A program made the translations under genes and the position numbers. Under the pieces are notes generated by a model. It ran no database searches. It had not been told where the DNA came from and was given only the letters and a program-made list of their open reading frames with translations. DNA of 64,000 bases from Nocardia wallacei (GTDB taxonomy: Bacteria; Actinomycetota; Actinomycetes; Mycobacteriales; Mycobacteriaceae), in the NCBI RefSeq assembly GCF_014466955.1, contig NZ_AP023396.1, positions 4,588,001 through 4,652,000 on the forward strand, given 5' to 3'. Positions 24,179-56,277 of this stretch are shown in pieces. Position 1 is the first letter of the stretch, and each line of letters begins with the position of its first letter.

Positions 24179-25369
24179 CTAGGTGTGCTGTGCCGACACG
24201 TTCTCGTTGCGGGCGCGTAGCAACGCGGGCCGGTGGTCACCATCTTTCGGCCAGTGGTGCGTCCCGGGCTTGTGCGCCTCGGTCACCAGGTGCTTGACGC
24301 TGGCGGCGCAGGAGAATTCCTTCAGCTTGCGGCCCATGAACCCGGTGAAGTACAAACGCTTCGCCGTGTCGTCTTTATGCAGGAGTTGGAAAATCCCGGC
24401 ACCACGCCCGAAGCTGAAGCACATGGCCTGGAATGCCAGGTCGACCGGCGCGGCTCGATTGCCCGCGATTCGGGCCAGCACCGTATCGGCGGCGTGCGCA
24501 CCCAGGCATCCAGCGATGTAGGCACTCATCCGGAACGGCAGGTCCGATGGGGCCGACGCATCGCCCGCCGCGACGATGCGATCGCTGTCGACGCTGGTCA
24601 GCGTCTCGTCGGTGAGCATTCGCCCGACGGCGTCGGTCCGCAACCCGCTGCGGACAGCCAGATCCGGAACACCGAAGCCCGCGGCCCAGACGGTGACCTC
24701 CCCGGCCAGGACGCGACCGTCGGCGAGTTCCACGGTTCCCGAACTCACCGAGGTGACCGAGGTATCCGGACCCTCGATCACCTCGACACCCAGTCGAGCG
24801 AGGTACTTGCGCGCCGTGCGCCGAGCGCTGGGGTGCAGGGACGGGCCGACCACCCCGCCACAGACGAGCCTGACATTGCGACCCTGTGCCGCGAGTTCGG
24901 CAGCAGTCTCGATACCCACCGGACCGCCCCCGACGACCGTCACCCTGGCTGTCGTAGGTGTGTCGAGAAGCGCCGATCGCAGCCGCTGTGCTGCTTCCAG
25001 AGTGGCCACCGGATAAGCGAATTCGGCCGCGCCCGGTACCTGCGGGCCACCGCTGTGGCTGCCTACTGCGTAGATCAGGTAGTCGTAGCCGATGCTGCCG
25101 CCCTCGGCGAGGGTCACGGTGCGTTCGGCCGCGTCGATGTGCGTCGCGTTGCCGACCAGCAACTCGGCGCCCTCAGCGAGTACCTCCTGATAGTCGACAA
25201 CCGCGTCATGGGTACCGCCAACCAGTTGGTGCAGCCGCAGCCGCGGTACGAAGACCTGCCGCGGATTGATCACTGTCACCGACACGTCCTCCCGCTGACG
25301 TAGACGATTGGCCGCCATCACTCCGGCGTACCCGCCGCCGACCACGACTACCTCGATGCCCTTGCCCAT
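24179..25369 (-). CDS. NAD(P)/FAD-dependent oxidoreductase (type II NADH dehydrogenase-like)
   Basis: This 396-aa flavoprotein has two Rossmann motifs: VVVVGGGYAGVMAANRL at the N terminus for FAD, and VTVVGGGPVGIETAAEL near residue 146 for NAD(P)H. VTVWAAGFGVPDL and RIVAAGDAS complete the FAD site. The layout matches NDH-2-like enzymes that pass electrons from NAD(P)H to quinone at the membrane surface. ATG 25369 follows GGAGA. The ECF41-type promoter (25404-25430) lies just upstream, placing it in the sigma-controlled group with the paralog at 28163-29353. Confidence 0.8.
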   Translation of the reverse strand: MGKGIEVVVVGGGYAGVMAANRLRQREDVSVTVINPRQVFVPRLRLHQLVGGTHDAVVDYQEVLAEGAELLVGNATHIDAAERTVTLAEGGSIGYDYLIYAVGSHSGGPQVPGAAEFAYPVATLEAAQRLRSALLDTPTTARVTVVGGGPVGIETAAELAAQGRNVRLVCGGVVGPSLHPSARRTARKYLARLGVEVIEGPDTSVTSVSSGTVELADGRVLAGEVTVWAAGFGVPDLAVRSGLRTDAVGRMLTDETLTSVDSDRIVAAGDASAPSDLPFRMSAYIAGCLGAHAADTVLARIAGNRAAPVDLAFQAMCFSFGRGAGIFQLLHKDDTAKRLYFTGFMGRKLKEFSCAASVKHLVTEAHKPGTHHWPKDGDHRPALLRARNENVSAQHT

Positions 25370-25403
25370 GGTGTCTCCTTCACTTCGAGAGGGTCGAGAA
25401 CAA

Positions 25404-25430
25404 GACACCGCGTCGGCGAGAATCCTGACG
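25404..25430 (-). promoter_or_regulatory. ECF41-type promoter of the first flavoprotein
   Basis: On the minus strand: CGTCAGG, 16 bases, TGTC (in GTGTCTTGTT). Spacing and bases match the six other sites here and the published ECF41 consensus TGTCACA-N16-CGTC. The -10 element lies about 35 bases before the start codon. Confidence 0.75.
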
Positions 25431-25552
25431 TGTTGTGAAACAGGTCATAATTCCGTTCGACATGCGGGTTTGCAGGCTATCGACACGCCACGGTTCCGCG
25501 GGGCCACCGTCGGCGGAAAGATGCCTCAGTGATCCAGGTCACTGGCCGACGC

Positions 25553-25579
25553 TGTCAGAAAATCGCGACTGGCGGTGTC
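25553..25579 (+). promoter_or_regulatory. ECF41-type promoter of the first DoxX-like gene
   Basis: TGTCAGA, 16 bases, TGTC (GGTGTCT). It precedes the DoxX-like start at 25677 by about 97 bases. It is divergent from the flavoprotein promoter, with about 120 bases between the two. Confidence 0.75.
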
Positions 25580-25676
25580 TCATCTCCGACCAACGGCATT
25601 GCCGACCGACCGTCGGCGGCGATCGGTTCGGCCCACGATGCCAGGCCAGAACCGCCGGCTGATGAAAGCGAAGCTC

Positions 25677-26054
25677 ATGAACCTCACCCTCTGGATCGTC
25701 GCCGGGTTGCTTGCCGCACTCGCCCTGTTCAGCGGCGCCACCAAAGTGTTCTTGCCCAAGGCCAAGCTGGACGAGGCATCGGATTGGACCGAAAACACCG
25801 GCACTGGTTTCGTCAGAACCCTCGGGGGCCTCGAGATACTGGCCGCGGCGGGTCTGACACTGCCTGCGGCGCTCGACATCGCGCCGGTGATGGTGCCGGT
25901 GACCGCCGTCTGCTGGGTTCTGTTGATGATCGGCGGGATCATCACCCACGCCCGGTACGGGCATTACAAGTACGTCGTGCTGTGTTTCGCTCTCCTCGCC
26001 GTGGCCGCCTTCGTGGCCTGGGGCCGCTTCGGTCCCGAATCTTTCACCGGCTGA
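25677..26054 (+). CDS. DoxX-like four-helix membrane protein
   Basis: This 125-aa protein has four hydrophobic helices and the DoxX-like pattern LWIVAGLLAALALFSGATKVFLP, FVRTLGGLEILAAAGLTLP and HARYGHYKYVVLCFALLA. DoxX-family proteins are small quinone-linked membrane proteins, often encoded with oxidoreductases, and are typical ECF41 targets. The start was set at ATG 25677 by comparison with its paralog at 33818-34210, which begins with the same sequence. Confidence 0.8.
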   Translation: MNLTLWIVAGLLAALALFSGATKVFLPKAKLDEASDWTENTGTGFVRTLGGLEILAAAGLTLPAALDIAPVMVPVTAVCWVLLMIGGIITHARYGHYKYVVLCFALLAVAAFVAWGRFGPESFTG

Positions 26055-26357
26055 GCGGCGACAATCGACGCAGATGTACGTCGGACCGAATCCGCAGTCA
26101 GCAGTGTGACCGGCGCAAACCGGAATCGCACTGAGCGGCCGCAGCTGAGCGACACCGGGACAGACGGGGTTACACCGGCCCCAGGCCACGTGCGTCGAGA
26201 GAATTCCGATCGAGCGAGTACAGTCGATTCGCTTGGCAATTGCCGTCGCGGTATACCCGGATTCCTTCCCTCACCCGGGTCGATCCCCGATGCGGTTCAA
26301 TGGCTTTGGTGCCACAGATCGCTAGGCAATCGACACTTATCGAGGGGAGGCAAGGGG
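26055..26357. other. Intergenic region
   Basis: About 300 bases after the DoxX-like gene. No gene or clear regulatory site is seen until the ribosome binding site of the lipoprotein gene (GAGGGGAGG, 26342-26350). Confidence 0.35.
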
Positions 26358-26696
26358 GTGCTGCGAAGCTTGATCGTGGCGACGACGATTGCCGGGGCTT
26401 TGCTCCTGGGCGGTTGCCGATTTCCCAGTCACCCGGTCAATGCCAAGGTCGGCAGTTGCCTGGGCTACAGCGAGCCGAGCAAGGCTCAAACCGAGAAGTA
26501 CCGTGAGCGAGTCCATTTGGTCGAGGTCGTGGCGTGCGAGGACGCCGAGGCCGCGTACCGAGTGCTCGCGCGCCTCGACCATGGAGCGGCGCAGGGCCTC
26601 GGCGACTGCGGGCCCTTTCCTGAGGCGGTCAAGTACTACACGACTACCCGCCGGTCCGGATCGAAGGAGTTCACGCTGTGCCTGGCGGTAAAGTGA
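26358..26696 (+). CDS. Small predicted lipoprotein
   Basis: The 112-aa product has a lipoprotein signal peptide (SLIVATTIAGALLLGGC, lipobox LGGC near residue 19) and a mature domain of about 90 residues with four or five Cys residues, suggesting disulfides. HLVEVVACEDAEAAYRVLARL resembles small secreted actinobacterial proteins of unknown role. GTG 26358 has GAGGGGAGG 8 bases upstream. Confidence 0.65.
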   Translation: MLRSLIVATTIAGALLLGGCRFPSHPVNAKVGSCLGYSEPSKAQTEKYRERVHLVEVVACEDAEAAYRVLARLDHGAAQGLGDCGPFPEAVKYYTTTRRSGSKEFTLCLAVK

Positions 26697-27118
26697 CCTT
26701 GCGCTGACACTCGCGTGCTGTTTATCGAGTGATCCTTCGATGCCCGCAACCGGTGTGGTCATGCTGGGGTGCTCGTTCGCCGAGTGCCTGGTGTGGCCTG
26801 ATCATTTGTCGATGCTGCGGAATCTGTGGACTTTCCCGCTCGACAACACTGTTGGTCCGGGCATGACCGCACCCGGGTGCGGTCATGCCGTAGCAGTGGG
26901 TCTTCCCGCCGAATGCCGTCTTGAACACCCTGCGCCGCAACATCGCCCACGATTTCCGGTCGGCGCGATGCCCACGCGCGCCTGACGGGATCCGTGATGA
27001 GCCGGAGGCAATCCCCTGGTTCGGCCGACCACCGATCTCATGTCGGTGAACGGACGAACCGAGAGGCCGGATCCCGTGGTTCGGCCGACCGGCACGGCAG
27101 AGGCGGTGGAGTCGTGCT
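26697..27118. other. Intergenic region with transposase traces, a palindrome and a direct repeat
   Basis: On the minus strand at about 26790-26840 the frame reads IRPHQALGERAP, like the C terminus of IS481/IS3-type transposases (RPHQALG..TP), without the rest of a transposase. It also holds a 30-base perfect palindrome (26860-26889) and a 20-base repeat, ATCCCSTGGTTCGGCCGACC, at 27011 and 27071 (60 bases apart). Confidence 0.45.
26860..26889. repeat. Perfect 30-base palindrome
   Basis: Each 15-base arm reads GGCATGACCGCACCC towards the centre, with no loop. A diverged half-copy lies near 26745. As RNA it would fold into a strong GC-rich hairpin, but there is no U-run; terminator, IS end or recombination site are all possible. 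Confidence 0.6.
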
Positions 27119-28048
27119 TCAGCTTCTCGGCGCCGCTATGTCGAAGACAGCCTTACCGCGCAAGCTGTGTGCGCGGTGGGCGGCGACCGCAGCCTCCATT
27201 TCGGTCCAGCTGTCCCGCCACACGATGACGGGACGCAGCGCACCGGTTGCGACCAAGCCGACGAGTATTTCCAGTTGCCGCCGCCGGTCGTCGAGCCCCG
27301 ACCCGTTGTACACAGAGGCGATCGATACGGGCCGGGGGTAACCCAGCGTGGAGCCGACCGGAAGCACGGCGGGCTGTCCGGAAGCCCAGCCGACACTCTG
27401 CAACGATCCGCCGGAGGTGAGCAAGCGATAGGCATCGGCCATGTGCTCTCCGCCGACCATATCGACGACGACATCGACGGGCTCCAGGTCCGCCAGGCCC
27501 GTCACCACGGCTTGCGCGCCCAACTCGAGCAGTCCGGCACGATCGGTATCCCGTCCCGCCACGGCTACCACGTGGGCGCCCGCGAGGGCCGCCAACTGTA
27601 CGGCGAAACCGCCGACTCCACCGGCGGCCCCGGTGACCAGAACTCGCCGGCCCAGCAGCGGACCGGCTTGCTCGAGTGCGCGCAGGGCCGTGCCCGCCGC
27701 CACGGGCAGGGTTGCCGCGACCCCGAGGTCCACCTCCCCGGGCACCACTGCGAGGTCGCGGGTGTCGACGGCCCGTAGCTCCGCCCAGCCGCCCCGATCG
27801 CCGTAGGACACGACACGGCTGCCGACCTGTGGCCCCGAACCGTCCGCGGCCGCCTCGACGACGATGCCCGCCGCGTCGAAGCCGAGTACGGTCCCGGCCG
27901 CGCTGTGCTGGGCGAAATACAGTTCGGCCGGGTTCAGCGACGAATGGGTGACCCGCAGCAGCGCCTGACAAGACGCGGGAACGGGATCCGGTGCGGAACC
28001 CAGCGCGAGTCGGCTGGGAGTATTCGGATCGACGACGACAGCGCGCAT
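27119..28048 (-). CDS. NAD(P)H:quinone oxidoreductase-like medium-chain dehydrogenase
   Basis: This 309-aa soluble protein belongs to the MDR superfamily: a GroES-like N-terminal part (LLRVTHSSLNPAELYF, GFDAAGIVVEA) and a Rossmann domain with VLVTGAAGGVGGFAVQLA and VDVVVDMVGG. The structural zinc-binding Cys cluster is absent, as in quinone oxidoreductases. ATG 28048 follows GGAGG with 8-base spacing. It lies between ECF41-controlled units but has no matching promoter upstream, so it may be regulated separately. Confidence 0.75.
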   Translation of the reverse strand: MRAVVVDPNTPSRLALGSAPDPVPASCQALLRVTHSSLNPAELYFAQHSAAGTVLGFDAAGIVVEAAADGSGPQVGSRVVSYGDRGGWAELRAVDTRDLAVVPGEVDLGVAATLPVAAGTALRALEQAGPLLGRRVLVTGAAGGVGGFAVQLAALAGAHVVAVAGRDTDRAGLLELGAQAVVTGLADLEPVDVVVDMVGGEHMADAYRLLTSGGSLQSVGWASGQPAVLPVGSTLGYPRPVSIASVYNGSGLDDRRRQLEILVGLVATGALRPVIVWRDSWTEMEAAVAAHRAHSLRGKAVFDIAAPRS

Positions 28049-28162
28049 GCGCGATACCTCCGGGTAAGTAGCCAGCCGAGCGCTGCTCGAGCCGGGTGTT
28101 GCGAAAAAAGTTGCGGCACAATCACTCCGGCACACACCGAAGTGGTGTTCGTGAAGGGCGGG

Positions 28163-29353
28163 CTACGCTGGAGCCTCGCTGGGCGAGTGCTTGCCGGCTT
28201 CGGTCAGGCGGTACTTGTGATCGGGCTTTCCGAATGTCGGGTGGCTGACGGCCCAGGCGGCGGTGTCGATGATCGCCGATTTGACGCGCGCGGCCGTCCG
28301 GCCGCGCAGCGCTCCGGGCTTGGCTCGCGCGGCACCGTCGACGAACTGGAACAGTCCATCCTTGCGGCCGAGGCTGATGTGGTTGCCGATGTAGGAGAAC
28401 GTGGTCGGCGCGACCCTGCGCCCGGTCAGGTCACCGATGATCGCCGCTGTCGCCGCTTTGCTGGTGGGGCCCGCCGAGGCGCACGACATCGGATACGGCA
28501 GACCGTTGTCGCCGATGACGAAGGCGCTGTCACCGGCAGCGTAAACGTTCGAGTGCGAGACCGACCGCATCTGGCGGTCGACGGTGATCTGCCCGTTGGG
28601 TTCCACGCGCAGGCCACTCGCGGCGGCGATCGGGTGCGCGGCGAAGCCCGCGGCCCACACGATCGCGTCCGCGGTGAAGCCGGTGCCGTCGGCGGCGATC
28701 GCGGCAGCTTTCTCGACGCGTTCGATGGGGGCGTGCTCGTGGACGGTGATCTCGAATCGGTCGAACGCACGGCGCATGTGGCGCTGCGCCTTGGGGCCCA
28801 GCCAGCCGCCGAGTTCGCCGCGGGTGACAAGGCCGACCCGAAACCCCGGACGGGATTCGGCGAGTTCGGTGGCGGCCTCGATCGCGGTCAGATTGCCGCC
28901 GACGACCAGCACCTGCCCGCCCTCGCCGAGTTGGTCCAGGTGTGCGCGCAGGCGCAGCGCGGCCGGCCGCGCCGCGACATGGTAAGCGTGCTCGGCGACG
29001 CCCGGCACGCCGTGATCGGCGATGCTGCTGCCGAGCGCGTAGAGCAGGGTGTCGTAGCCGAGCCGACTGGTCTCGCCGCCCTCGGTGACGGTGACAGTTC
29101 GATGCTCGGGGTCGAGACCGATGACGCGGGCCAGCCGGAGCCGGATGCCGGTGCCCGCGAAGACCTTGTCCAGCGGCCGATGGCGTAGCTCCTGCCCGGC
29201 CGCGAGCTGATGCAGCCGCAACCGCTCGACGAAATCGGGTTCGGCGTTGACCACGGTGATCTCGAAATCGTCGGGGTGGAGCTGTCGCGCCAGGAATGTC
29301 GCGGAGAATGCTCCGGCGTATCCGGCCCCGAGAACGACGATGCGGTGCTTCAT
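28163..29353 (-). CDS. NAD(P)/FAD-dependent oxidoreductase (type II NADH dehydrogenase-like), second copy
   Basis: This 396-aa flavoprotein has the FAD motif VVLGAGYAGAFSATFLA at the N terminus, the NAD(P) motif VLVVGGNLTAIEAATELAE near residue 148, AIVWAAGFAAHPI and NVYAAGDSAFV. It is a diverged paralog of 24179-25369 of the same length. In the second motif the usual GxGxxG is altered (GGNLTAIE). ATG 29353 follows CAGGAG. Its ECF41-type promoter (29393-29419) is divergent from that of the sigma gene. Confidence 0.8.
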   Translation of the reverse strand: MKHRIVVLGAGYAGAFSATFLARQLHPDDFEITVVNAEPDFVERLRLHQLAAGQELRHRPLDKVFAGTGIRLRLARVIGLDPEHRTVTVTEGGETSRLGYDTLLYALGSSIADHGVPGVAEHAYHVAARPAALRLRAHLDQLGEGGQVLVVGGNLTAIEAATELAESRPGFRVGLVTRGELGGWLGPKAQRHMRRAFDRFEITVHEHAPIERVEKAAAIAADGTGFTADAIVWAAGFAAHPIAAASGLRVEPNGQITVDRQMRSVSHSNVYAAGDSAFVIGDNGLPYPMSCASAGPTSKAATAAIIGDLTGRRVAPTTFSYIGNHISLGRKDGLFQFVDGAARAKPGALRGRTAARVKSAIIDTAAWAVSHPTFGKPDHKYRLTEAGKHSPSEAPA

Positions 29354-29392
29354 GGCTGAGACTCCTGTCGGATTCGTGTACTCGCCGAACAA

Positions 29393-29419
29393 GACACCGC
29401 TCGCCACGATTCTCTGACA
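29393..29419 (-). promoter_or_regulatory. ECF41-type promoter of the second flavoprotein
   Basis: On the minus strand: TGTCAGA, 16 bases, TGTC (GTGTCTTGTTC). The -10 lies about 40 bases before the start codon. Confidence 0.75.
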
Positions 29420-29452
29420 GCCATCACCACTGTTGTGACCTGCCCCACACGA

Positions 29453-29479
29453 TGTCAGGTTTTTCGGCGCGGCGGTGTC
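29453..29479 (+). promoter_or_regulatory. ECF41-type promoter of the sigma factor gene
   Basis: TGTCAGG, 16 bases, TGTC (GTGTCTTGTTG), about 130 bases before the sigma gene start. This indicates autoregulation, as is common for ECF sigma factors. Confidence 0.75.
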
Positions 29480-29609
29480 TTGTTGTCGCCCTGCGGCTCG
29501 GAAGGAGTCCCAAGTCGAAGTCGGCGAGACCGGACGGCCGAGGGTAATGGCACGGCTATCAGCCACAAGTCGGCCCTGACGGGCCGCCCGACAACATGCG
29601 GAGCGACCA

Positions 29610-30569
29610 ATGAACATGTCCGCGGCAGGCGAATTCGGTGGGCGGCAGGCCCGCGACGAGAGTACCGGCCTCGCAGACGGCCACGCCGTCTTCGTGGCGA
29701 CAAGAACCTTTGTCGCGCATCGTAATCTGCTGTTCACCGTCGCCTACGAGATACTCGGGTCCGCGGCGGATGCCGACGACGTCCTGCAGGAAACGTGGTT
29801 GCGCTGGGTCGGAGTCGATACCGTCCACGTCGAGCGCCAGCGGGCCTACCTGGTCCGGATCACCACGCGGCGAGCGCTCAACCGACTGCGCTCGGCGAAA
29901 CGCCGACGTGAGGCGTATGTGGGTTCCTGGCTGCCCGAACCGCTGCTCACCGCCCCGGACGTGGCCGCCGATGTCGAACTCGCCGAGAGCGTGTCGATGG
30001 GTCTGATGGTGGTGCTCGAAACCCTGGCGCCGGCCGAGCGTGCGGTGTTCGTGCTGCGCGAGGCGTTCGGTCTCGGCTACGAGGAGATCGCCGCCGCGGT
30101 GGACAAGTCGGTGGCTGCGGTACATCAGATCGCCCACCGTGCCCGCCGCCACGTCGAGGCCCGCCGACCGCGCCGCACAGTCACCGCGGGCGAGGCGCGA
30201 GCGGTCGTCGAAGCGTTCCGTGCGGCCCTCGAGACCCGTGACCTGCAGGGCCTGCTCGACGTCCTCGCCGCCGACGTGGTGGTGATCAGTGACGGCGGCG
30301 GCATCAAACAGGCCAACCCGCGGCCCGTCATCGGCGCGGAGAAGGTCGCGCGGTTCATCGTCACGGGCTTGACCAAACACAACATCGCACTGACGGTCAC
30401 CACGACCGCGATCAACGCCGGGCCCGCGCTGGCGCTGCACATCGACGGAGAACTCGACGGGGTTCTCGCCGTACGCGTCGAAGACACCCGCATCACCGGT
30501 CTCTACTTCGTCCGCAACCCGCACAAACTGACCCATATCGATACCGAAAACCCACTCACCCTGCACTGA
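29610..30569 (+). CDS. ECF41-group RNA polymerase sigma factor with SnoaL-like C-terminal domain
   Basis: This 319-aa protein has sigma region 2 (HRNLLFTVAYEILGSAADADDVLQETWLRW), region 4 (AERAVFVLREAFGLGYEEIAAAVDKSVAAVHQIAHRAR) and a C-terminal NTF2/SnoaL-like domain. The hallmarks of ECF41 are present: WLPEPL in the linker, DGGGIK (family DGGGR/K) and NPHKL near the end (family NPDKL). In this group the fused domain controls activity instead of a separate anti-sigma factor, and classical targets are DoxX-like and oxidoreductase genes. The same promoter occurs before it and its neighbours. A paralog is at 55378-56277. Confidence 0.9.
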   Translation: MNMSAAGEFGGRQARDESTGLADGHAVFVATRTFVAHRNLLFTVAYEILGSAADADDVLQETWLRWVGVDTVHVERQRAYLVRITTRRALNRLRSAKRRREAYVGSWLPEPLLTAPDVAADVELAESVSMGLMVVLETLAPAERAVFVLREAFGLGYEEIAAAVDKSVAAVHQIAHRARRHVEARRPRRTVTAGEARAVVEAFRAALETRDLQGLLDVLAADVVVISDGGGIKQANPRPVIGAEKVARFIVTGLTKHNIALTVTTTAINAGPALALHIDGELDGVLAVRVEDTRITGLYFVRNPHKLTHIDTENPLTLH

Positions 30570-30603
30570 CACCAGCCACCATTCGACGGTTGAAGGATTA
30601 GGC

Positions 30604-31647
30604 ATGATCGCGCGAGCACCGCTGAGCCCCAGCTCATTTCCGTCCCGATGGCCGACTGTGATCAGCGCGGTCATCGTGCTCACCGCGGTGACCAGCGCAC
30701 TATTGGTTGCCTTCGCCTGGCCCTCGGTGCGGTCCTCGGTGCACGACGTCCCGATCGCTGTCGCCGGACCGGCGCCCGCAGCCGCCCAGATCCGGACCGC
30801 GCTGCAACAGCGAGCACCGGACGCGTTCGACATCACCGAAGTCGCCGACACCGCCCGCGCAGAAGAACTCATTCGCGACCGGCAGGTGTACGGAGCCGTG
30901 GACCTCACCTCCGGCTCCCCGCAGATCCTCATCGCTTCCGCCGCCGGCACCGCAGTGGCCCAAACCTTGCAGACCATGGCGAACGGGCTCGGACACGACA
31001 GCACTGCGGCTACGCCGATGCCGGTCCGAGACCTCGCCGCACTCCCCGCGGCCGACCCGCGCGGCGCCGGCCTCGCCGCGGGCGCACTCCCGCTGGTCAT
31101 GGGCGGACTGCTCGCCGCGGTGGTGCTCACCCGGCTCGTCCGCGGCACCGACCGCCGCGTCGTCGGGGCGTCGCTCTTCGCCATCACCGGTGGCCTGGCG
31201 ATCGCGGGGATACTGCAATTCTGGTTCGGCTCGCTGAGCGGCTGCTATCTCGCCAACGCCGGTGCCATCGCCGTGAGCATCGCGGCCACCTCCGTGACCA
31301 TCCTCGGACTCGAATCGACATTCGGGTACGCCGGGATCGGAATCGGTGCCGTCATCATGATGCTCATCGGCAACCCGCTCTCGGGAACCGCCACCGCTCC
31401 GGAGATGCTGCCCGGCTGGTCCGGCGCACTCGGACAGTTACTGCCACCCGGGGCGGGCGGCCGGCTACTGCGCTCGACCGCGTTCTTCGACGGCCGCGGG
31501 GCGGCATCGGCCGTCGCTGTCCTGGTCGCCTGGATCCTACTGGGCATTGCACTGTGCGCTGTCGGCACCGTGCGCGCACACCGCCGACGTGGACTTCGGC
31601 ACGAACCACCTGCATCAGCAGCGGCCGAAGACGCTGTCCTGCGGTGA
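30604..31647 (+). CDS. Membrane protein resembling ABC-2/YhgE-type permeases
   Basis: This 347-aa protein has one N-terminal transmembrane helix (VISAVIVLTAVTSALLVAF), an extracytoplasmic domain of about 130 residues (HDVPIAVAGPAPAAAQIRTAL onwards), and five more helices. This matches ABC-2 or YhgE/Pip-like proteins, but no ATPase is adjacent. It starts 34 bases after the ECF41 sigma gene with AAGGA upstream, so it is probably transcribed with it. Its role in the module is unknown. Confidence 0.6.
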   Translation: MIARAPLSPSSFPSRWPTVISAVIVLTAVTSALLVAFAWPSVRSSVHDVPIAVAGPAPAAAQIRTALQQRAPDAFDITEVADTARAEELIRDRQVYGAVDLTSGSPQILIASAAGTAVAQTLQTMANGLGHDSTAATPMPVRDLAALPAADPRGAGLAAGALPLVMGGLLAAVVLTRLVRGTDRRVVGASLFAITGGLAIAGILQFWFGSLSGCYLANAGAIAVSIAATSVTILGLESTFGYAGIGIGAVIMMLIGNPLSGTATAPEMLPGWSGALGQLLPPGAGGRLLRSTAFFDGRGAASAVAVLVAWILLGIALCAVGTVRAHRRRGLRHEPPASAAAEDAVLR

Positions 31648-31703
31648 CAGAGCAAACCTGGGATCTCCCCGCTCGGGTATCTCCCAGTCTCCGCACATCC
31701 GAC

Positions 31704-31753
31704 TGTCAGTGATTCGGGTCACGGTGTGTCATGGATCGGCGGCCTGCGGTGTC
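31704..31753 (+). promoter_or_regulatory. ECF41-type promoter (possibly overlapping tandem) of the cytochrome b gene
   Basis: The main site is TGTCATG (31727-31733), 16 bases, TGTC (31750-31753, in GTGTCTTGTTG). A second match, TGTCAGT (31704-31710), 16 bases, TGTC (31727-31730), shares its -10 with the -35 of the first. The main site is 42 bases before the start codon. Confidence 0.7.
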
Positions 31754-31794
31754 TTGTTGCCAGCCATCGTCGACGAGCAGGAGGCCAGGAAGCA

Positions 31795-33411
31795 ATGAGT
31801 ACTGTGCTGCGCGGTGCGGATGCGGCGGACCAGCGCTATCACGCGGCCGCATTCGTCAAACGCTCCATCAACAAGGTCTTTCCCACGCACTGGTCGTTTC
31901 TGCTCGGTGAGATCGCCCTGTACAGCTTCATCATCCTGCTGCTGTCGGGTGTGTACCTGACGTTGTTCTTCGACCCGTCGATGAGCGAGGTCGTCTACGA
32001 CGGCGCGTATCAGCCTTTGCGGGGACTGACCATGTCGCGGGCCTACGAGTCGGCACTGAACATCAGTTTCGAGGTCCGCGGCGGATTGTTCGTGCGGCAG
32101 CTGCACCATTGGACAGCGCTGCTGTTCGTAGCGTCGATGATCGTGCACATGTGCCGGATATTCTTCACCGGCGCGTTCCGCCGCCCGCGTGAAATCACCT
32201 GGGTCCTCGGCTCGCTGCTGCTGATACTCGCCCTGTTCGAAGGCTTCTTCGGCTATTCGCTGCCCGACGACCTGCTGTCGGGTACCGGGCTGCGCGCGGC
32301 GTTCTCCGGCATCACGCTGTCGATCCCCGTGGTCGGCACCTGGCTGCACTGGATGCTGTTCGACGGCGACTTCCCCGGGACCCTCATCATTCCGCGCCTG
32401 TACATCACCCATGTCCTGCTGTTCCCCGCGATCATGTCGGCGCTGGTCATCGCCCACATCGGCATCGTCTGGTACCAGAAGCACACCCAGTTCCCCGGCC
32501 CGGCACGCACCGAGAACAACGTGGTGGGAACGCGGATCGTGCCGGTGTTCTCCCTCGACCAGAGCGCGTTCTTCATGTTCACCCTCGCGACGGTCGCGTT
32601 GATGGGCGGCCTGCTCCAGATCAACCCGATCTGGAATATGGGCCCCTACAACCCCTCCCAGGTGTCGGCGGGTTCGCAACCGGACTTCTACATGATGTGG
32701 ACCGACGGCATGGTCCGCCTGATGCCGCCGTGGGAAATCTATCTGGGGCGCTACACGATTCCGGCCCCTTTCTGGGTCGCCCTGATGATGGCGCTCGTGC
32801 TCGCCGTCCTGATCGCGTATCCGTGGATCGAGAAGCGGCTGTCGAAGGACACCGCGCATCACAATCTGCTGCAACGGCCACGAGATGTCCCGGTGCGCAC
32901 CGCGATCGGAGCCATGGCACTGACCTTCTATCTGGTGCTGACCCTGGCGTGCGTCAACGACATCATCGCGTTGCAGTTCCATGTCTCGCTCAACGCGACC
33001 ACCTGGTTCTTCCGCATCGCAGTACTGCTCGGCCCGCCGATCTCCTACTACCTCGCCTACCGGATGTGCCTGGGCCTGCAACGCAGCGACCGCGCCGTAC
33101 TCGAACACGGCATCGAAACGGGCCTGCTCAAACGGTTGCCACACGGCGAGTACATCGAGATGCACCAGCCGCTCGGGCCGGCCGACGAGCACGGCCACCC
33201 GGCCCGGCTGGAATACCAGGGCGCGCCGGTGCGGAAAAAGATGAACGCGCTCGGCGCGGCCGGCAAGCCCGGCCGAGGATCGTTCCTGCGCCCCGACCCC
33301 GAGTCCGAGGCCCAGCGCCTCGCGGCGTCCGAACATGCCGAGGAGAGTCGGCAACTGGCCGTGCTGCGCCAGATCCAGCGGCACCGAAACAATGTGGGGA
33401 GCGGCGAATGA
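31795..33411 (+). CDS. Stand-alone cytochrome b (QcrB-like)
   Basis: This 538-aa membrane protein is a full-length actinobacterial QcrB homolog. Haem ligands are expected in [17 protein letters not shown] and [22 protein letters not shown], and the quinol-site segment reads [19 protein letters not shown]. It has about nine helices and a hydrophilic C-terminal tail. In the respiratory bc1 complex QcrB is encoded with QcrC and the Rieske protein QcrA; neither is here. Instead it has an ECF41-type promoter and overlaps a 78-aa gene. I infer a paralog in a stress-induced quinol-linked electron path. Confidence 0.85.
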
Positions 33412-33644
33412 GGCCGCGCGCTCGTGGCGCCGCAACTACCGCCTACGACTACGGCTTGCTGTTCCCGGTGGCGACAACCGCCACCGAGGACGCCGCTCAC
33501 TACATCCGCGACATGCTCCGCGCCAGCGGAATCCGCGCCACGACAGCCCGATCCCAGATGCGGAGCGGGTGCCTGCGGGTACTTGTGTTCCCTGAGGACG
33601 CGGCCTGCGCCTACGACCTGATCTGCAAATACACCACCGAGTAA
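33408..33644 (+). CDS. Small soluble protein coupled to the cytochrome b gene
   Basis: The 78-aa product starts at the ATG overlapping the cytochrome b stop (ATGA), so translation is coupled. The sequence [20 protein letters not shown], then [13 protein letters not shown] and [16 protein letters not shown] has the beta-alpha-beta periodicity of small ferredoxin-like-fold domains such as DUF2007, but contains only two Cys and no cofactor motif. Conserved coupling would make it a partner or regulator of the cytochrome b. Confidence 0.6.
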
Positions 33645-33703
33645 TGCTCCGCTGACATACCAGCCGCGGCAGCAGTGGTGTGGCACACGCCACCACGGCC
33701 CGG

Positions 33704-33730
33704 CGTCACACGCCTCCTGCCGGCGGTGTC
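33704..33730 (+). promoter_or_regulatory. ECF41-type promoter of the second DoxX-like gene
   Basis: CGTCACA, 16 bases, TGTC (GGTGTCTGG). It precedes the start at 33818 by about 88 bases. Confidence 0.75.
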
Positions 33731-33817
33731 TGGTTTCGATCGAATACACCCTTCGGGCGAACGGCTCGGCCGCATCGAGGACCAATCGGCACGCCCGCAA
33801 GCCATGAGGAGAAGCTC

Positions 33818-34210
33818 ATGAACCTCGCTCTCTGGATCGTCGCAGGGCTACTCGCGGCGCTCGCCTTGTCCGGTGGCGCGACCAAGACCTTCATGCCGAA
33901 GAACAAGCTGGACGAATTGGGCGCGAAGTCCGGCGGCGGCTGGACCCAGCACGCCAGCGCGGGGTTCGTCAGAACCCTCGGGGTCCTCGAGATACTGGCC
34001 GCGGCAGGCTTCACCCTGCCCGCTGTGCTCGACATCGCACCGATCATGGTGGCGGTGACCGCGGTCTGCTGGATCCTGTTGATGATCGGCGCGATGGCCA
34101 CCCACGCCCGCTACGGACAGTACAGATATGTCGCGCTGAACCTGGTCTACCTCGCCCTGGCGGCCTTCGTCGCCTGGGGCCGGTTCGGCCCCGAGTCCTT
34201 CATCGGCTGA
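33818..34210 (+). CDS. DoxX-like four-helix membrane protein, second copy
   Basis: This 130-aa protein is a close paralog of 25677-26054: LWIVAGLLAALALSGGATKTFMP, GFVRTLGVLEILAAAGFTLP, HARYGQYRYVALNLVYLAL and FVAWGRFGPESF. It has four membrane helices and DoxX-like family membership. ATG 33818 follows GAGGAG. Having two near-identical DoxX copies under the same promoter type suggests recent duplication within the regulon. Confidence 0.8.
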   Translation: MNLALWIVAGLLAALALSGGATKTFMPKNKLDELGAKSGGGWTQHASAGFVRTLGVLEILAAAGFTLPAVLDIAPIMVAVTAVCWILLMIGAMATHARYGQYRYVALNLVYLALAAFVAWGRFGPESFIG

Positions 34211-34365: not shown

Positions 34366-35747
34366 ATGCGCCGCACTGCTGTGCCGATCGTGGCCAGGCT
34401 GGGCCCGCTGGGCCACCCGGCCCGGCTGACCGTCACCGGGTTCCTGGTCATGAACATCGTCGGGGCGCTGGTGCTCATGCTTCCGGTGTCCTCCCGCACC
34501 GGCGATTGGACCGGCCTGATCACTGCCCTGTTCACCGCCACGTCGGCGGTCTGCGTCACTGGGCTGGTCGTGGTCGATACCGCGACCTATTGGTCGCCGC
34601 TCGGGCAAGCCGTGGTGCTCGGGCTGATCCAGATCGGTGGTTTGGGCATCATGACCGCTGCCTCACTGTTGGGGCTGCTGCCCGCTCGCCGGATGGGGTT
34701 ACGTATGCAGCTGATCGCCCAAGCCGAAACGAAGACACTGCGGCTGGGCGAAACCCGGCGCGTGGTGCGCGGAGTGCTGGCGATGAGCTTGGTGATCGAG
34801 GTGGTCGTCGCCGCGGTCCTTGCTGCCCGCCGTCTGGCCACGACGAGCGAGTCGTTCGGTTCCGCGGTGTATTTACGGTGTGTTTCACGCCATTTCGGCG
34901 TACAACAACGCCGGTTTCGCACTGCACGAGGACAGCCTCGTCCGGCACGCGACCGATGCGTGGACGATCGTGCCGATCACCGTCGCGTTCATGCTGGGCG
35001 GTATTCGGATTCCCGGTGGTGTTCGAGACGACGCGCTGGATCGCCGCCCGCCGCCGCGGTACACGGCTGCCGGGTTGGTCGCTGCACACCAAGATCACTG
35101 TGCTCACCTACTTCGGACTGCTGGTGGCCGGGATCATGCTGGTGACCGCGCTGGAGTGGGGCAACCCCGGCACTCTCGGACCGCTGTCACTTCCGGGAAA
35201 GCTGCTCACCGGTGCCTTCCACGGCGCCACCCCGCGCACGGCCGGCTTCAATTCCGTCGACATGGGCGCGATGCATCCCACCACGTTGCTGGTCAATGAC
35301 GCGCTGATGTTCGTCGGAGGCGGCAGCGCCGGCACCGCGGGCGGAATCAAGGTGACCACGTTCGCGTTGCTGGCGTTCGTGGTGGCCGCAGAGATTCGCG
35401 GCCAGCCGACCGTCCACGTCATGGGCCGGCGGCTGGCCGCGACCGTCCAGCGGCAGGCGATCACTGTCGCCCTGCTCGGTGTGGCGGTCGTCCTGGTCGC
35501 GACCATGACGCTGTTGTGGATGTCGGACCGACCGCTCGATGCGGTGTTGTTCGAAGTGGTGTCCGCGTTCGGCACCGTCGGCCTGTCGACCGGCATCACC
35601 GCGAGCCTTCCTGCCACCGGCCAGCTGCTGCTGATCGTCGTGATGTTCATCGGCCGCGTCGGGCCGATCACCCTGGCGTCCGCGCTCGCACTGCGCGAGC
35701 ACGAACGGCGCTACGAACTACCGGAGGAGCGACCCATCGTTGGCTAG
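34366..35747 (+). pseudogene. TrkH-type potassium uptake membrane subunit, two frameshifts
   Basis: The protein would be a K+ translocating subunit: MNIVGALVLMLPVSS, the selectivity-like segments TATSAVCVTGL, FHAISAYNNAGF, GATPRTAGFNSVDM and SAFGTVGLSTGI are all present. They lie in three different frames. One extra base near 34876 (TATTTACGGTG) and one near 35003 (GGTATTCGG) break the gene; removing both restores a continuous TrkH. TrkA follows, overlapping its end. Either uptake through this pair has been lost or these are sequence errors. Confidence 0.75.
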
Positions 35748-36426
35748 GACATCGTTCACCAAACCCCCGAAGCATCCCACCACCCGGGTCGTGGTCATCG
35801 GGCTCGGCCGCTTCGGCGCCTCACTGGCCCACGAGCTCGTCGAGCACGGCTCCGAAGTCCTGGCCATCGACGCCGATCCTCGTCTGGTGCAACAGTATTC
35901 CGACGAACTCACCCACGTCGCCGTCGCCGACACCACCGACCCCGACGCGCTCGAACAGCTCGGCGTGGCCGACTTCCCGCATGCCGTGGTGGGTATCGGC
36001 AGTGACCTGGAGGCCAGCATCCTCACCACCTCTCTGCTGGTCGATTTCCGCATCCCGCGCATCTGGGCCAAGGCCAACAGCCGCCAGCACGGCCGCATCC
36101 TCGAGCGTATCGGCGCCCACCACGTGGTCCTGCCGGAGTTCGACATGGGTGAACGCATCGCGCACCTGGTCACCGGGCGCATGCTCGATTACATCGAATT
36201 CGACGACGACTACGCGATGGTGCGCACCACTGCCCCGCACGCGGTGATCGGCACGACGCTCACCGAGAGCGGACTTCGCGAACACTTCGATGTCACGGTC
36301 GTGGCAATCAAACGCCGCGGCGGCGAATTCACCTACGCCACACCCGAAACCGTCGTCGCCCACGGCGACCAGCTGATCGTCTCCGGCAGCATCGCCTGCG
36401 TGGAATCCTTCGCCGACCTCGTCTGA
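35740..36426 (+). CDS. TrkA-type potassium channel regulatory subunit
   Basis: This 228-aa cytosolic protein has an RCK N domain with the nucleotide motif VVVIGLGRFGASLAHELVEHG and an acidic end of strand 2 (IDADPRL), then an RCK C domain (TTLTESGLREHFDVTVVAI, GDQLIVSG). It gates TrkH-type K+ transporters in response to NAD(H)/ATP. TTG 35740 is the start that fits GGAGGAG at 35722-35728. It overlaps the TrkH frame by 8 bases. Confidence 0.8.
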   Translation: MARTSFTKPPKHPTTRVVVIGLGRFGASLAHELVEHGSEVLAIDADPRLVQQYSDELTHVAVADTTDPDALEQLGVADFPHAVVGIGSDLEASILTTSLLVDFRIPRIWAKANSRQHGRILERIGAHHVVLPEFDMGERIAHLVTGRMLDYIEFDDDYAMVRTTAPHAVIGTTLTESGLREHFDVTVVAIKRRGGEFTYATPETVVAHGDQLIVSGSIACVESFADLV

Positions 36427-55196: not shown

Positions 55197-55293
55197 GGTC
55201 GCGTTCTCCTTCCGTGCGGGGGCTTACGTCCTTCGGATGTCCGGTGAGCCAAGATCGAAACGGCTGGGCCGCGACGTGAACCGGATCACCCGC

Positions 55294-55320
55294 TGTCACA
55301 CTCGGGCACCGGGCGGTGTC
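55294..55320 (+). promoter_or_regulatory. ECF41-type promoter of the second sigma factor gene
   Basis: TGTCACA, 16 bases, TGTC (GGTGTCCTATC), 57 bases before the start codon. The -35 is the exact published ECF41 consensus. It indicates autoregulation or cross-regulation by the first ECF41 factor. Confidence 0.75.
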
Positions 55321-55377: not shown

Positions 55378-56277
55378 GTGGATACCGACCCCGCCACCGA
55401 CCCGGCCACCGAGGCGTTCGTCGCCCACCGCAACCTGCTGTTCACCGTCGCCTACGAAATGCTCGGCTCGGCCGCCGACGCCGAGGACGTGCTGCAGGAG
55501 ACGTGGCTGCGGTGGAGCAAGGTCGACCCCGGCCAGATCGAGGACCCGCGCGCCTACCTGGTCCGGATCACCACCCGGCAGTCCCTGAACCGGCTGCGAA
55601 CCCTGAAGCGCCGCAAGGAGTCCTACGTCGGCCCCTGGCTGCCCGAGCCGCTGCTCACCACCCCCGATGTCGCCGAGAACGTGGAGCTCGCCGAGAGCAT
55701 GTCGATGGCGCTGATGCTCGTGCTCGAGACGCTCTCGCCCACCGAGCGCGCCGTCTTCGTGCTCCGGGAGGTCTTCGACATGGGGTACGACGACATCGCG
55801 GCCGCGGTCGACAAGACGCCCGCGGCCGTGCGCCAGATCGCCCACCGCGCCCGCGGGCACGTCGATGCCCGCCGACCGCGCGCCACCGTCACTCCCGGCC
55901 AGGCCAGGGCCGCACTCGAATCGTTCCAGCGGGCGATCGAGACGGGCGACCCGCAGGGCCTGCTCGACGTCCTCGCGCCGGAGGTCGTGCTGCTCGGTGA
56001 CGGCGGCGGCGTCAAACGCGCCGCGCTGCGCCCGGTCGTCGGCGCGGAGAAGGTGGCTCGCTACATGTCCTCGGGCATCCGCAAGCTCGGCGCCACGCTC
56101 ACCACCGAGCCGACCACCATCAACGGCAACCCCGCCCTCCTGTTCCGCGTCGACGGCGAGATCGAGGGGATCATGGCGTTCCGGATGGAGGACGGCCGGT
56201 TCACCGGCCTCTATTTCGTCCGCAACCCGGAGAAGCTGACCCGCATAGAATCCGCGACCACCCTCAGTCTCGGCTGA
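55378..56277 (+). CDS. ECF41-group RNA polymerase sigma factor, second copy
   Basis: This 299-aa protein parallels 29610-30569: region 2 (HRNLLFTVAYEMLGSAADAEDVLQETWLRW), WLPEPL, region 4 (TERAVFVLREVFDMGYDDIAAAVDKTPAAVRQIAHRAR), and a SnoaL-like domain with DGGGVK and NPEKL. GTG 55378 follows CAGGA. No oxidoreductase or DoxX gene is beside it, so its targets lie elsewhere, possibly the 24-34 kb module, whose promoters match its own. Confidence 0.9.
   Translation: MDTDPATDPATEAFVAHRNLLFTVAYEMLGSAADAEDVLQETWLRWSKVDPGQIEDPRAYLVRITTRQSLNRLRTLKRRKESYVGPWLPEPLLTTPDVAENVELAESMSMALMLVLETLSPTERAVFVLREVFDMGYDDIAAAVDKTPAAVRQIAHRARGHVDARRPRATVTPGQARAALESFQRAIETGDPQGLLDVLAPEVVLLGDGGGVKRAALRPVVGAEKVARYMSSGIRKLGATLTTEPTTINGNPALLFRVDGEIEGIMAFRMEDGRFTGLYFVRNPEKLTRIESATTLSLG

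Follow-up and report, generated by a model that had tools for sequence, protein, structure and literature searches.

A probable ECF41 sigma factor regulon in Nocardia wallacei with putative composite promoters carrying a CRP-like palindrome

We analysed a stretch of 64,000 nucleotides from Nocardia wallacei (contig NZ_AP023396.1, positions 4,588,001 to 4,652,000; hereafter the window), which holds the gene of an extracytoplasmic function (ECF) sigma factor of group ECF41 and, within 10 kb, six sites matching promoters of that group. Upstream of the −35 element of most of these sites lies a conserved palindrome with the core of the CRP consensus, which had been missed by the sequence-only reading in which the regulon was first proposed. 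In our assessment the window probably carries a local ECF41 regulon with composite promoters that are activated jointly with CRP, and in which a histidine (His) or arginine (Arg) in sigma region 4.2 sets promoter specificity.

Promoter sites and the sigma factor of the window

The sequence-only reading had placed promoter sites before six genes, namely those of two FAD/NAD(P) oxidoreductases (FlavA and FlavB), two DoxX_2-family membrane proteins (DoxA and DoxB), the sigma factor itself and an accessory cytochrome b (QcrB2). All six sites were recovered exactly where they had been placed (Table 1), on the strand facing the named gene and with identical spacing, and both forms of the pattern exceed their shuffle counts in the window. 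The loose pattern, YGTCA-N18-TGTC, has nine matches as against a shuffle mean of 1.47, a count of nine being reached in none of 100 shuffles. The full motif is longer than the consensus first described, reading YGTCA-N14-GCGGTGTC, and its tight form, YGTCA-N14-SCGGTGTC, is matched seven times (shuffle mean 0.04, largest shuffle count 1). These patterns predict that the sites act as promoters.

Three loose matches lie beyond the six sites, at 24938, 31704 and 55294. The last of these, before a second ECF41-type sigma gene, is perhaps the seventh site to which the sequence-only reading had alluded. The match at 24938 was rejected as a promoter; it lies within the FlavA coding sequence and, because similar matches repeat inside FlavA in many relatives' loci, it is taken to reflect that coding sequence. 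The match at 31704–31730 was likewise rejected as a separate promoter, since it overlaps the QcrB2 site and contains the palindrome of the QcrB2 promoter.

The assignment of the sigma factor to the ECF41 type was borne out. The protein scores 350 bits against the NCBIfam model TIGR02957 (SigX4; cut-off 323) and 296.6 bits against PRK09636 (SigJ; cut-off 271), and Pfam sigma regions 2 and 4 are both over cut-off, in keeping with the domain make-up of ECF41. Its best solved relative is SigJ (5xe7), with 148.7 bits over residues 25–308, which is the protein of M. tuberculosis (excerpt of PMC8999054). Pfam called no SnoaL domain in the window sigma; the matches to SigX4, PRK09636 and 5xe7 (to residue 308) are full-length.

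In the excerpts of Wecke et al. (2012; PMC3426412) that serve here for comparison, the ECF41 promoter is TGTCACA-n16-CGTC, with TGTT or CGTC as the −10 in the two organisms studied, WLPEP is named as the linker motif between regions 2 and 4, and the control exerted by ECF41 sigmas is generally limited to one target gene or operon. The window sigma resembles these in its sigma domains and extension, in its linker (GSWLPEPLL in the translation), in the TGTCA and the spacing of its promoters, and in having neighbouring oxidoreductase genes, FlavA and FlavB, that carry the motif. It departs from them in that six matching promoters, not a single target, stand within 10 kb, four sites have G as their sixth −35 base, the −10 is GGTGTC, and a conserved palindrome lies upstream.

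Table 1. Positions of the genes, ECF41-type promoters and palindromes in the window.
Feature	Positions	Strand	Evidence
FlavA, FAD/NAD(P) oxidoreductase; ATG at 25369 (longer open reading frame (ORF) starts upstream)	24179..25369	-	Pfam Pyr_redox_2, 134 bits
DoxA, DoxX_2-family membrane protein	25677..26054	+	Pfam DoxX_2, 66.3 bits
FlavB, FAD/NAD(P) oxidoreductase	28163..29353	-	Pfam Pyr_redox_2, 125 bits
ECF41/SigJ-type sigma gene, 319 amino acids, WLPEP linker, C-terminal extension, helix ...AAVHQIAHRAR	29610..30569	+	NCBIfam; SigJ 5xe7
Membrane protein, family-less, just downstream of sigma gene	30604..31647	+	tblastn matches in relatives
QcrB2, accessory QcrB, cytochrome b of bc1 complex	31795..33411	+	NF050120, 747 bits, over cut-off
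DoxB, DoxX_2-family membrane protein	33818..34210	+	Pfam DoxX_2, 65.2 bits
Second ECF41/SigJ-type sigma gene, helix ...AAVRQIAHRAR (L224, L180)	55378..56277	+	TIGR02957, 373.8 bits, over cut-off
ECF41-type promoter of FlavA	25404..25430	-	pattern match, tight form
ECF41-type promoter of DoxA	25553..25579	+	pattern match, tight form
ECF41-type promoter of FlavB, divergent from sigma gene	29393..29419	-	pattern match, tight form
ECF41-type promoter of sigma gene, TGTCAGG...GCGGTGTC	29453..29479	+	pattern match, tight form; same kind before relatives' orthologous unit
ECF41-type promoter of QcrB2, TGTCAT	31727..31753	+	pattern match, tight form; close orthologs' promoters
ECF41-type promoter of DoxB, CGTCAC form	33704..33730	+	pattern match, tight form
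Seventh strict site, promoter of second ECF41-type sigma gene, TGTCAC form	55294..55320	+	tight-pattern match
CRP-like palindrome ATGACCTGTTTCAC, 4 base pairs (bp) upstream of FlavA −35	25435..25448	-	relaxed pattern
CRP-like palindrome GTGATCCAGGTCAC, 10 bp upstream of DoxA −35	25529..25542	+	relaxed pattern
CRP-like palindrome GTGACCTGCCCCAC, 4 bp upstream of sigma gene −35	29435..29448	+	relaxed pattern
CRP-like palindrome GTGATTCGGGTCAC, 4 bp upstream of QcrB2 −35, within loose match 31704-31730	31709..31722	+	relaxed pattern
CRP-like palindrome GTGAACCGGATCAC, 4 bp upstream of second sigma's −35	55276..55289	+	relaxed pattern

Conservation of the site and of the palindrome

The sigma was sought in 118 genomes of the same genus, and the loci around the 40 best matches outside its own genome were taken. 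In most of these FlavA lies directly before the sigma gene as one unit, and a TGTCA...GGTGTC-type site precedes this unit or the sigma gene in 37 of the 40 loci (TGTCAG in 36, TGTCAC in L168); two of the three remaining loci have a spacer one base longer, which brings the count to 39. Since the relatives mostly keep FlavA and sigma as one unit, the window is a rearranged, enlarged form in which the flavoproteins, the sigma, DoxX and the cytochrome b each have a separate promoter. In eight of the relatives' loci, FlavB or DoxA is preceded by a site of its own. Moreover, a 32-base version of the motif occurs in 9 of the 118 genomes, N. wallacei included, with no control match, and in seven of the eight other genomes it lies on the contig of the sigma ortholog, within about 1.4 kb of that ortholog.

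The −10 had been thought to have shifted to TGTC in this lineage, a view that these data do not uphold. The strain shares its TGTC −10 with relatives, 37 of whose 40 loci have the same promoter, and a class-wide test with FlavA homologs carries this further. Homologs were matched in 14 of 148 genomes, giving 22 loci of which 21 were oriented and one could not be; an ECF41-type site lies upstream in 17 of the 21, with GGTGTC as the −10 in 16 of these 17. In the excerpted text of PMC3426412, furthermore, TGTT is the −10 of the B. licheniformis target promoter and TGTC is found among the candidate sites.

The second element is the palindrome GTGA-N6-TCAC, 4 bp or about 10 bp upstream of the −35. 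A relaxed pattern finds it at four of the six promoters in the window, at 4 bp before FlavA, the sigma gene and QcrB2 and at 10 bp before DoxA, and the whole genome holds 10 relaxed composites of palindrome and promoter, compared with 0 in the control. An alignment of the 37 relatives' promoters delimits the footprint. The 42 columns from −60 to −19 relative to the −35 carry 0–0.6 bit each and the three bases before TGTCA 0.1–0.3 bit, with the aligned GTGATC and TCACA reaching 1.4–2.0 bits (1.5–2.0 within GTGA and TCAC), and strict GTGA-N6-TCAC stands at spacing 4 in 33 of the 37. In 73 sigma-linked promoters, which were picked by their sigma and independently of the palindrome, counting by hand gave a relaxed palindrome at most 36 bases away in 63. 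As a free pattern the composite is matched 305 times, in 112 of the 118 same-genus genomes, against 3 times for the reversed control; among the 109 of the 305 matches that were copied, the spacing is 4 bp in 49, 9 in 21 and 10 in 25.

Outside the window, composites are found in the same genome at C1:4927626, 7525924, 5167887, 3852789 and 6098040. Behind two of the five are FlavA paralogs; a further FAD oxidoreductase gene with an ECF41 paralog nearby, an alcohol-dehydrogenase-like gene and a gene not assigned to a family follow the other three.

The ORF downstream of the composite was read in 62 genus and family loci (one of 63 did not parse). A called start codon follows the composite by 30–62 bases in 47 of them, and the first ORF opens with the GxGYxG flavoprotein motif in 29. 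The other downstream genes, judged by eye from their first residues, include DoxX-like, carboxymuconolactone-decarboxylase-like, epimerase-like and hydrolase-like genes, sigma genes and accessory QcrB.

In the class-wide test a relaxed palindrome accompanies all six sites from Nocardia, at 4 or 5 bp, and six of the 11 sites from other genera, at 4, 9, 14 or 15 bp. Among named genomes the spacing-4 composite was found in at least 117 stretches, and the 80 examined are, going by their titles, all from actinomycetes (Nocardia, Mycobacterium sensu lato, Streptomyces, Saccharothrix, Nonomuraea and others). The downstream ORF opens with GxGYxG in 59 of 75 of the stretches listed, five of the 80 being without a called downstream ORF, and an ECF41-like sigma lies within the locus for 56 of the 80. 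In another genus of the family (g29; L236–L238, L240) 14–15 bp separate the palindrome from the −35, which is roughly a helical turn more than 4 bp.

The region 4.2 residue, the −35 base and the target genes

In the 73 sigma–promoter pairs, His in the region 4.2 helix (AAVHQIAHRAR) stands beside TGTCAG in 37 of 37 and Arg beside YGTCAC in 36 of 36. The pairs left out 13 sigmas of at least 59% identity for which the script found no promoter, and distant paralogs without a site; two of the sigmas left out, L131 and L154, have His, with TGTCAG sites in a separate locus listing. Another 20 loci, held out and selected because they have a TGTCAG or TGTCAT composite or a cytochrome b gene, yielded six pairs, of which three are His with TGTCAG (from a sigma clade about 50% identical), two Arg with TGTCAT and one Arg with TGTCAG. 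Across a tree of 80 sigmas the helix residue changes three times. This association suggests a role for the residue in the choice of −35. The position of the His falls in the SigJ (5xe7) helix ...AARQLASRARK, where SigJ has Arg, and the SigJ-dependent sigI promoter contains GTCACA. Todor et al. reportedly described, in PNAS in 2020, the residue–base relations that set ECF promoter choice; the likeness to that rewiring of specificity lies in such relations, the His–G and Arg–C pair in ECF41 coming from the present analysis.

This pattern bears on the earlier proposal that one sigma runs the whole module, which is supported in part. The FlavA, DoxA, FlavB and sigma sites are YGTCAG and fit the local sigma, which is the sole His type among the 11 helices read in its genome (none of the 10 paralogs read has His; two are unread). 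QcrB2 can probably be added, because a TGTCAG composite lies about 40 bases before the gene in five of six close orthologs (one locus, L446, was unreadable in the first reading and was taken from the hold-out reading), whereas 23 other QcrB loci have no palindrome in the 200 bases upstream and one loose ECF41-like site between them; on this comparison its membership in the regulon appears well supported. The DoxB site, being CGTCAC, looks like one that belongs to an Arg-type paralog, one of which is encoded 26 kb away (the second sigma gene in Table 1). The His/Arg code and the forms of the sites therefore make control by one sigma likely at four or five of the promoters, the sixth being doubtful.

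It is conceivable, if somewhat doubtful, that several paralogous ECF41 sigmas share these promoters and that the cluster is a meeting point of their network. The genome encodes 13 paralogs covering most of the SigX4 model, seven of them over cut-off, the window sigma included; near-identical sites stand before the second sigma gene and elsewhere, and DoxB has its CGTCAC. Sharing is opposed, however, by the finding that TGTCAG goes with His-type sigmas, a residue absent from the 10 paralogs read.

The targets are redox and membrane proteins, as had been read from the sequence, comprising the two FAD/NAD(P) oxidoreductases, the two DoxX_2 proteins and the QcrB-type cytochrome b; their redox function is predicted from the family matches in Table 1. 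FlavA is distant kin of NADH-dehydrogenase-like and FSP1 flavoproteins, and its PDB relatives are weak (best 65.5 bits). QcrB2 scores up to 867 bits against solved bc1 cytochrome b subunits and is termed accessory because the genome holds three QcrB matches, of which it is one; the scan of the surrounding genes recognised neither qcrA nor qcrC. No anti-sigma family was matched among the nine neighbouring proteins scanned. The co-oriented membrane protein encoded after the sigma gene (30604–31647), for which there was no Pfam or NCBIfam match, has tblastn matches next to the sigma in roughly half of the relatives' 40 loci and is a possible signal-input partner of the sigma.

Between DoxA and a quinone-reductase-like gene lies a small protein of the LppU/SCO3897 family (26358–26696; NF049863, 40.9 bits, over cut-off). 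By eye, a TrkH-like potassium-transporter reading at 34366–35747 seems to be split over more than one frame, with six stops in the straight translation, and it is followed by a TrkA-like ORF (35740–36426, by eye from the ORF list).

Joint activation with CRP and its alternatives

The most likely binder of the palindrome, judging by its form and by the regulators encoded in the genome, is CRP. The core GTGA-N6-TCAC is that of the CRP consensus TGTGA-N6-TCACA, and binding in M. tuberculosis is often at −60 to −40 from transcription starts (excerpt of PMC4117774). Sites like this consensus are strict in 33 of the 37 relatives' promoters and relaxed in four of the six in the window. With a start 5–8 bases after TGTC and a spacing of 4, the palindrome would be centred at about −42 to −46. 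There is one clear CRP-type helix-turn-helix gene in the genome (65 bits), six more being barely over cut-off (27–33 bits). Its product is nearly identical to 3h3u, which we take to be M. tuberculosis CRP (444 bits; the recognition-helix stretch is identical in the alignment), and matches 4byy, presumably GlxR of Corynebacterium, with 380 bits. Among other palindrome binders, Rex recognises sites with a gap of 8 bases, and BldD a box unlike the palindrome found here. In the open-licence literature searched (titles and abstract starts, with subscription papers mostly outside it), we found no paper linking ECF41 with CRP or this palindrome and none in which CRP partners an ECF sigma holoenzyme; the novelty of an ECF41–CRP composite promoter is provisional.

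We propose that the window sigma would direct RNA polymerase to YGTCA(G)-N13/14-GCGGTGTC promoters, its targets being the two FAD oxidoreductases, a DoxX-like membrane protein and the sigma gene itself (positive autoregulation), with the promoter of the accessory cytochrome b a probable further target. A CRP-family regulator at the palindrome would contact the ECF41 holoenzyme, and the two would activate jointly; hence strong transcription would need CRP as well as an active sigma whose C-terminal extension permits it. According to a 2022 review, the ECF41 extension is inhibitory and its ligand likely a small molecule (PMC8999054). The choice between TGTCAG and TGTCAC would depend on whether the region 4.2 helix has His or Arg, and this would keep paralogous ECF41 sigmas apart. 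A wider form of the proposal, to which we hold only tentatively, is that actinomycete ECF41 promoters are two-key gates, at which a CRP-family dimer 4, about 10 or about 15 bp from the −35 would license or recruit the holoenzyme, the His/Arg switch insulating the dozen paralogs from one another.

A plain ECF41 regulon, with the sigma alone driving the promoters and the palindrome serving an unrelated repressor or a regulator other than CRP, seems to us rather unlikely. It can point to the ECF41 sigmas of B. licheniformis and R. sphaeroides, which when expressed activated their target promoter, with no co-activator mentioned in the excerpts of PMC3426412, and to the promoters where the palindrome is missing. 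Against it, the preferred spacings of 4 or 9–10 bp suit a protein that touches polymerase, and a repressor less well, which suggests activation rather than repression; the half sites are those of the CRP consensus, and the genome has its one clear CRP gene. It is very improbable that the repeated motif is another protein's binding site and no promoter at all, as its two blocks have the spacing of ECF promoters, its −35 is of the ECF41 type, and it often lies beside ECF41 sigma genes and precedes a called start codon by 30–62 bases in most (47 of 62) composite loci. Least probable of all is that the halves TCAC and GTGA are remnants of additional −35 elements from ECF41 promoters that overlap or diverge: GTCAC does occur in both, and the FlavB and sigma promoters are divergent, but a duplicated −35 was rejected because the position preceding TCAC is not confined to G (G 108, C 63, A 58 and T 10 in 239 distinct composites) and the two palindrome halves are about equally conserved.

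Several observations weigh against the jointly activated regulon that we prefer. The motif should not, by the reasoning of the sequence-only reading, be equally common at random positions genome-wide, and this was tested by pattern. The loose motif has 56 + 59 (115) matches genome-wide against 26 + 27 (53) for a reversed-pattern control, about twofold, so that the original consensus by itself would serve poorly for scanning a genome; exact matches to the tight form number 17 in the 7.9-Mb genome, seven of them inside the window. Seven of these 17 strict matches (L010, L013, L025, L031, L041, L043 and L044) have no strict palindrome in their upstream flanks. Within the window the palindrome is weak at most at two promoters, FlavB having none by pattern (that of the sigma promoter lies 15 bp upstream in a weak form) and DoxB only a weak GTGG-N6-CCAC at 33680–33693, 10 bp upstream.

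The distribution beyond the genus points the same way. Five of the 11 FlavA sites from other genera have no relaxed palindrome match, three of the five showing by eye a degenerate half site, GTGATCTG, at the same place, and four further oriented FlavA homologs have no ECF41-type site by pattern. As the family, phylum and class-wide counts indicate, the full composite form is most frequent in Nocardia and scattered elsewhere. In the family and phylum scans, which used the TGTCAY form and left TGTCAG promoters uncounted, strict composites were found in 7 of the 10 Nocardia genomes of the family sample and 14 of the 141 from its other genera, and in 10 of the 393 phylum-sample genomes from outside the genus.

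As to the His/Arg code, it is contradicted at L483 (G007:C77), where an Arg sigma goes with a TGTCAG promoter before its flavoprotein gene. The L483 sigma gene appears frame-shifted in its C-terminal extension, by sequencing error or decay. Six TGTCAG flavoprotein genes (L473–L477 and L482) have no ECF41-like sigma in their 10-kb locus, and G097, one of the genomes concerned, has no sigma match at E ≤ 1e-60; five of the six promoters, each palindrome plus TGTCAG, have GCGTTGTC or GCGCTGTC as the −10. Near the cytochrome b genes of L488, L490 and L491 lie distant ECF41-like sigmas with Arg or Tyr, not counted as pairs. Finally, in three independent pairs on the tree the base follows the residue in two and stays in one, which is neutral (p 0.5); with only two independent co-changes, the code, striking as a pattern, has few independent events behind it.

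Among ECF groups ECF41 is widespread; its activating signal is unsettled, and its sigmas are generally taken to act on one neighbouring target. If the proposal is true, the global cAMP/CRP state of the cell and an extension-bearing sigma would be read together, which would supply a missing input for a group without an anti-sigma or an agreed signal. A second element at a preferred distance from the −35, at hundreds of promoters in the genus and across actinomycetes from Nocardia to Streptomyces, would imply that these sigmas act with a partner, for which CRP is a testable candidate. The His/Arg rule would allow promoters to be assigned to the paralogous sigmas that read them, and one switchable electron-transfer module would unite an accessory cytochrome b with flavoproteins and a DoxX-like protein.

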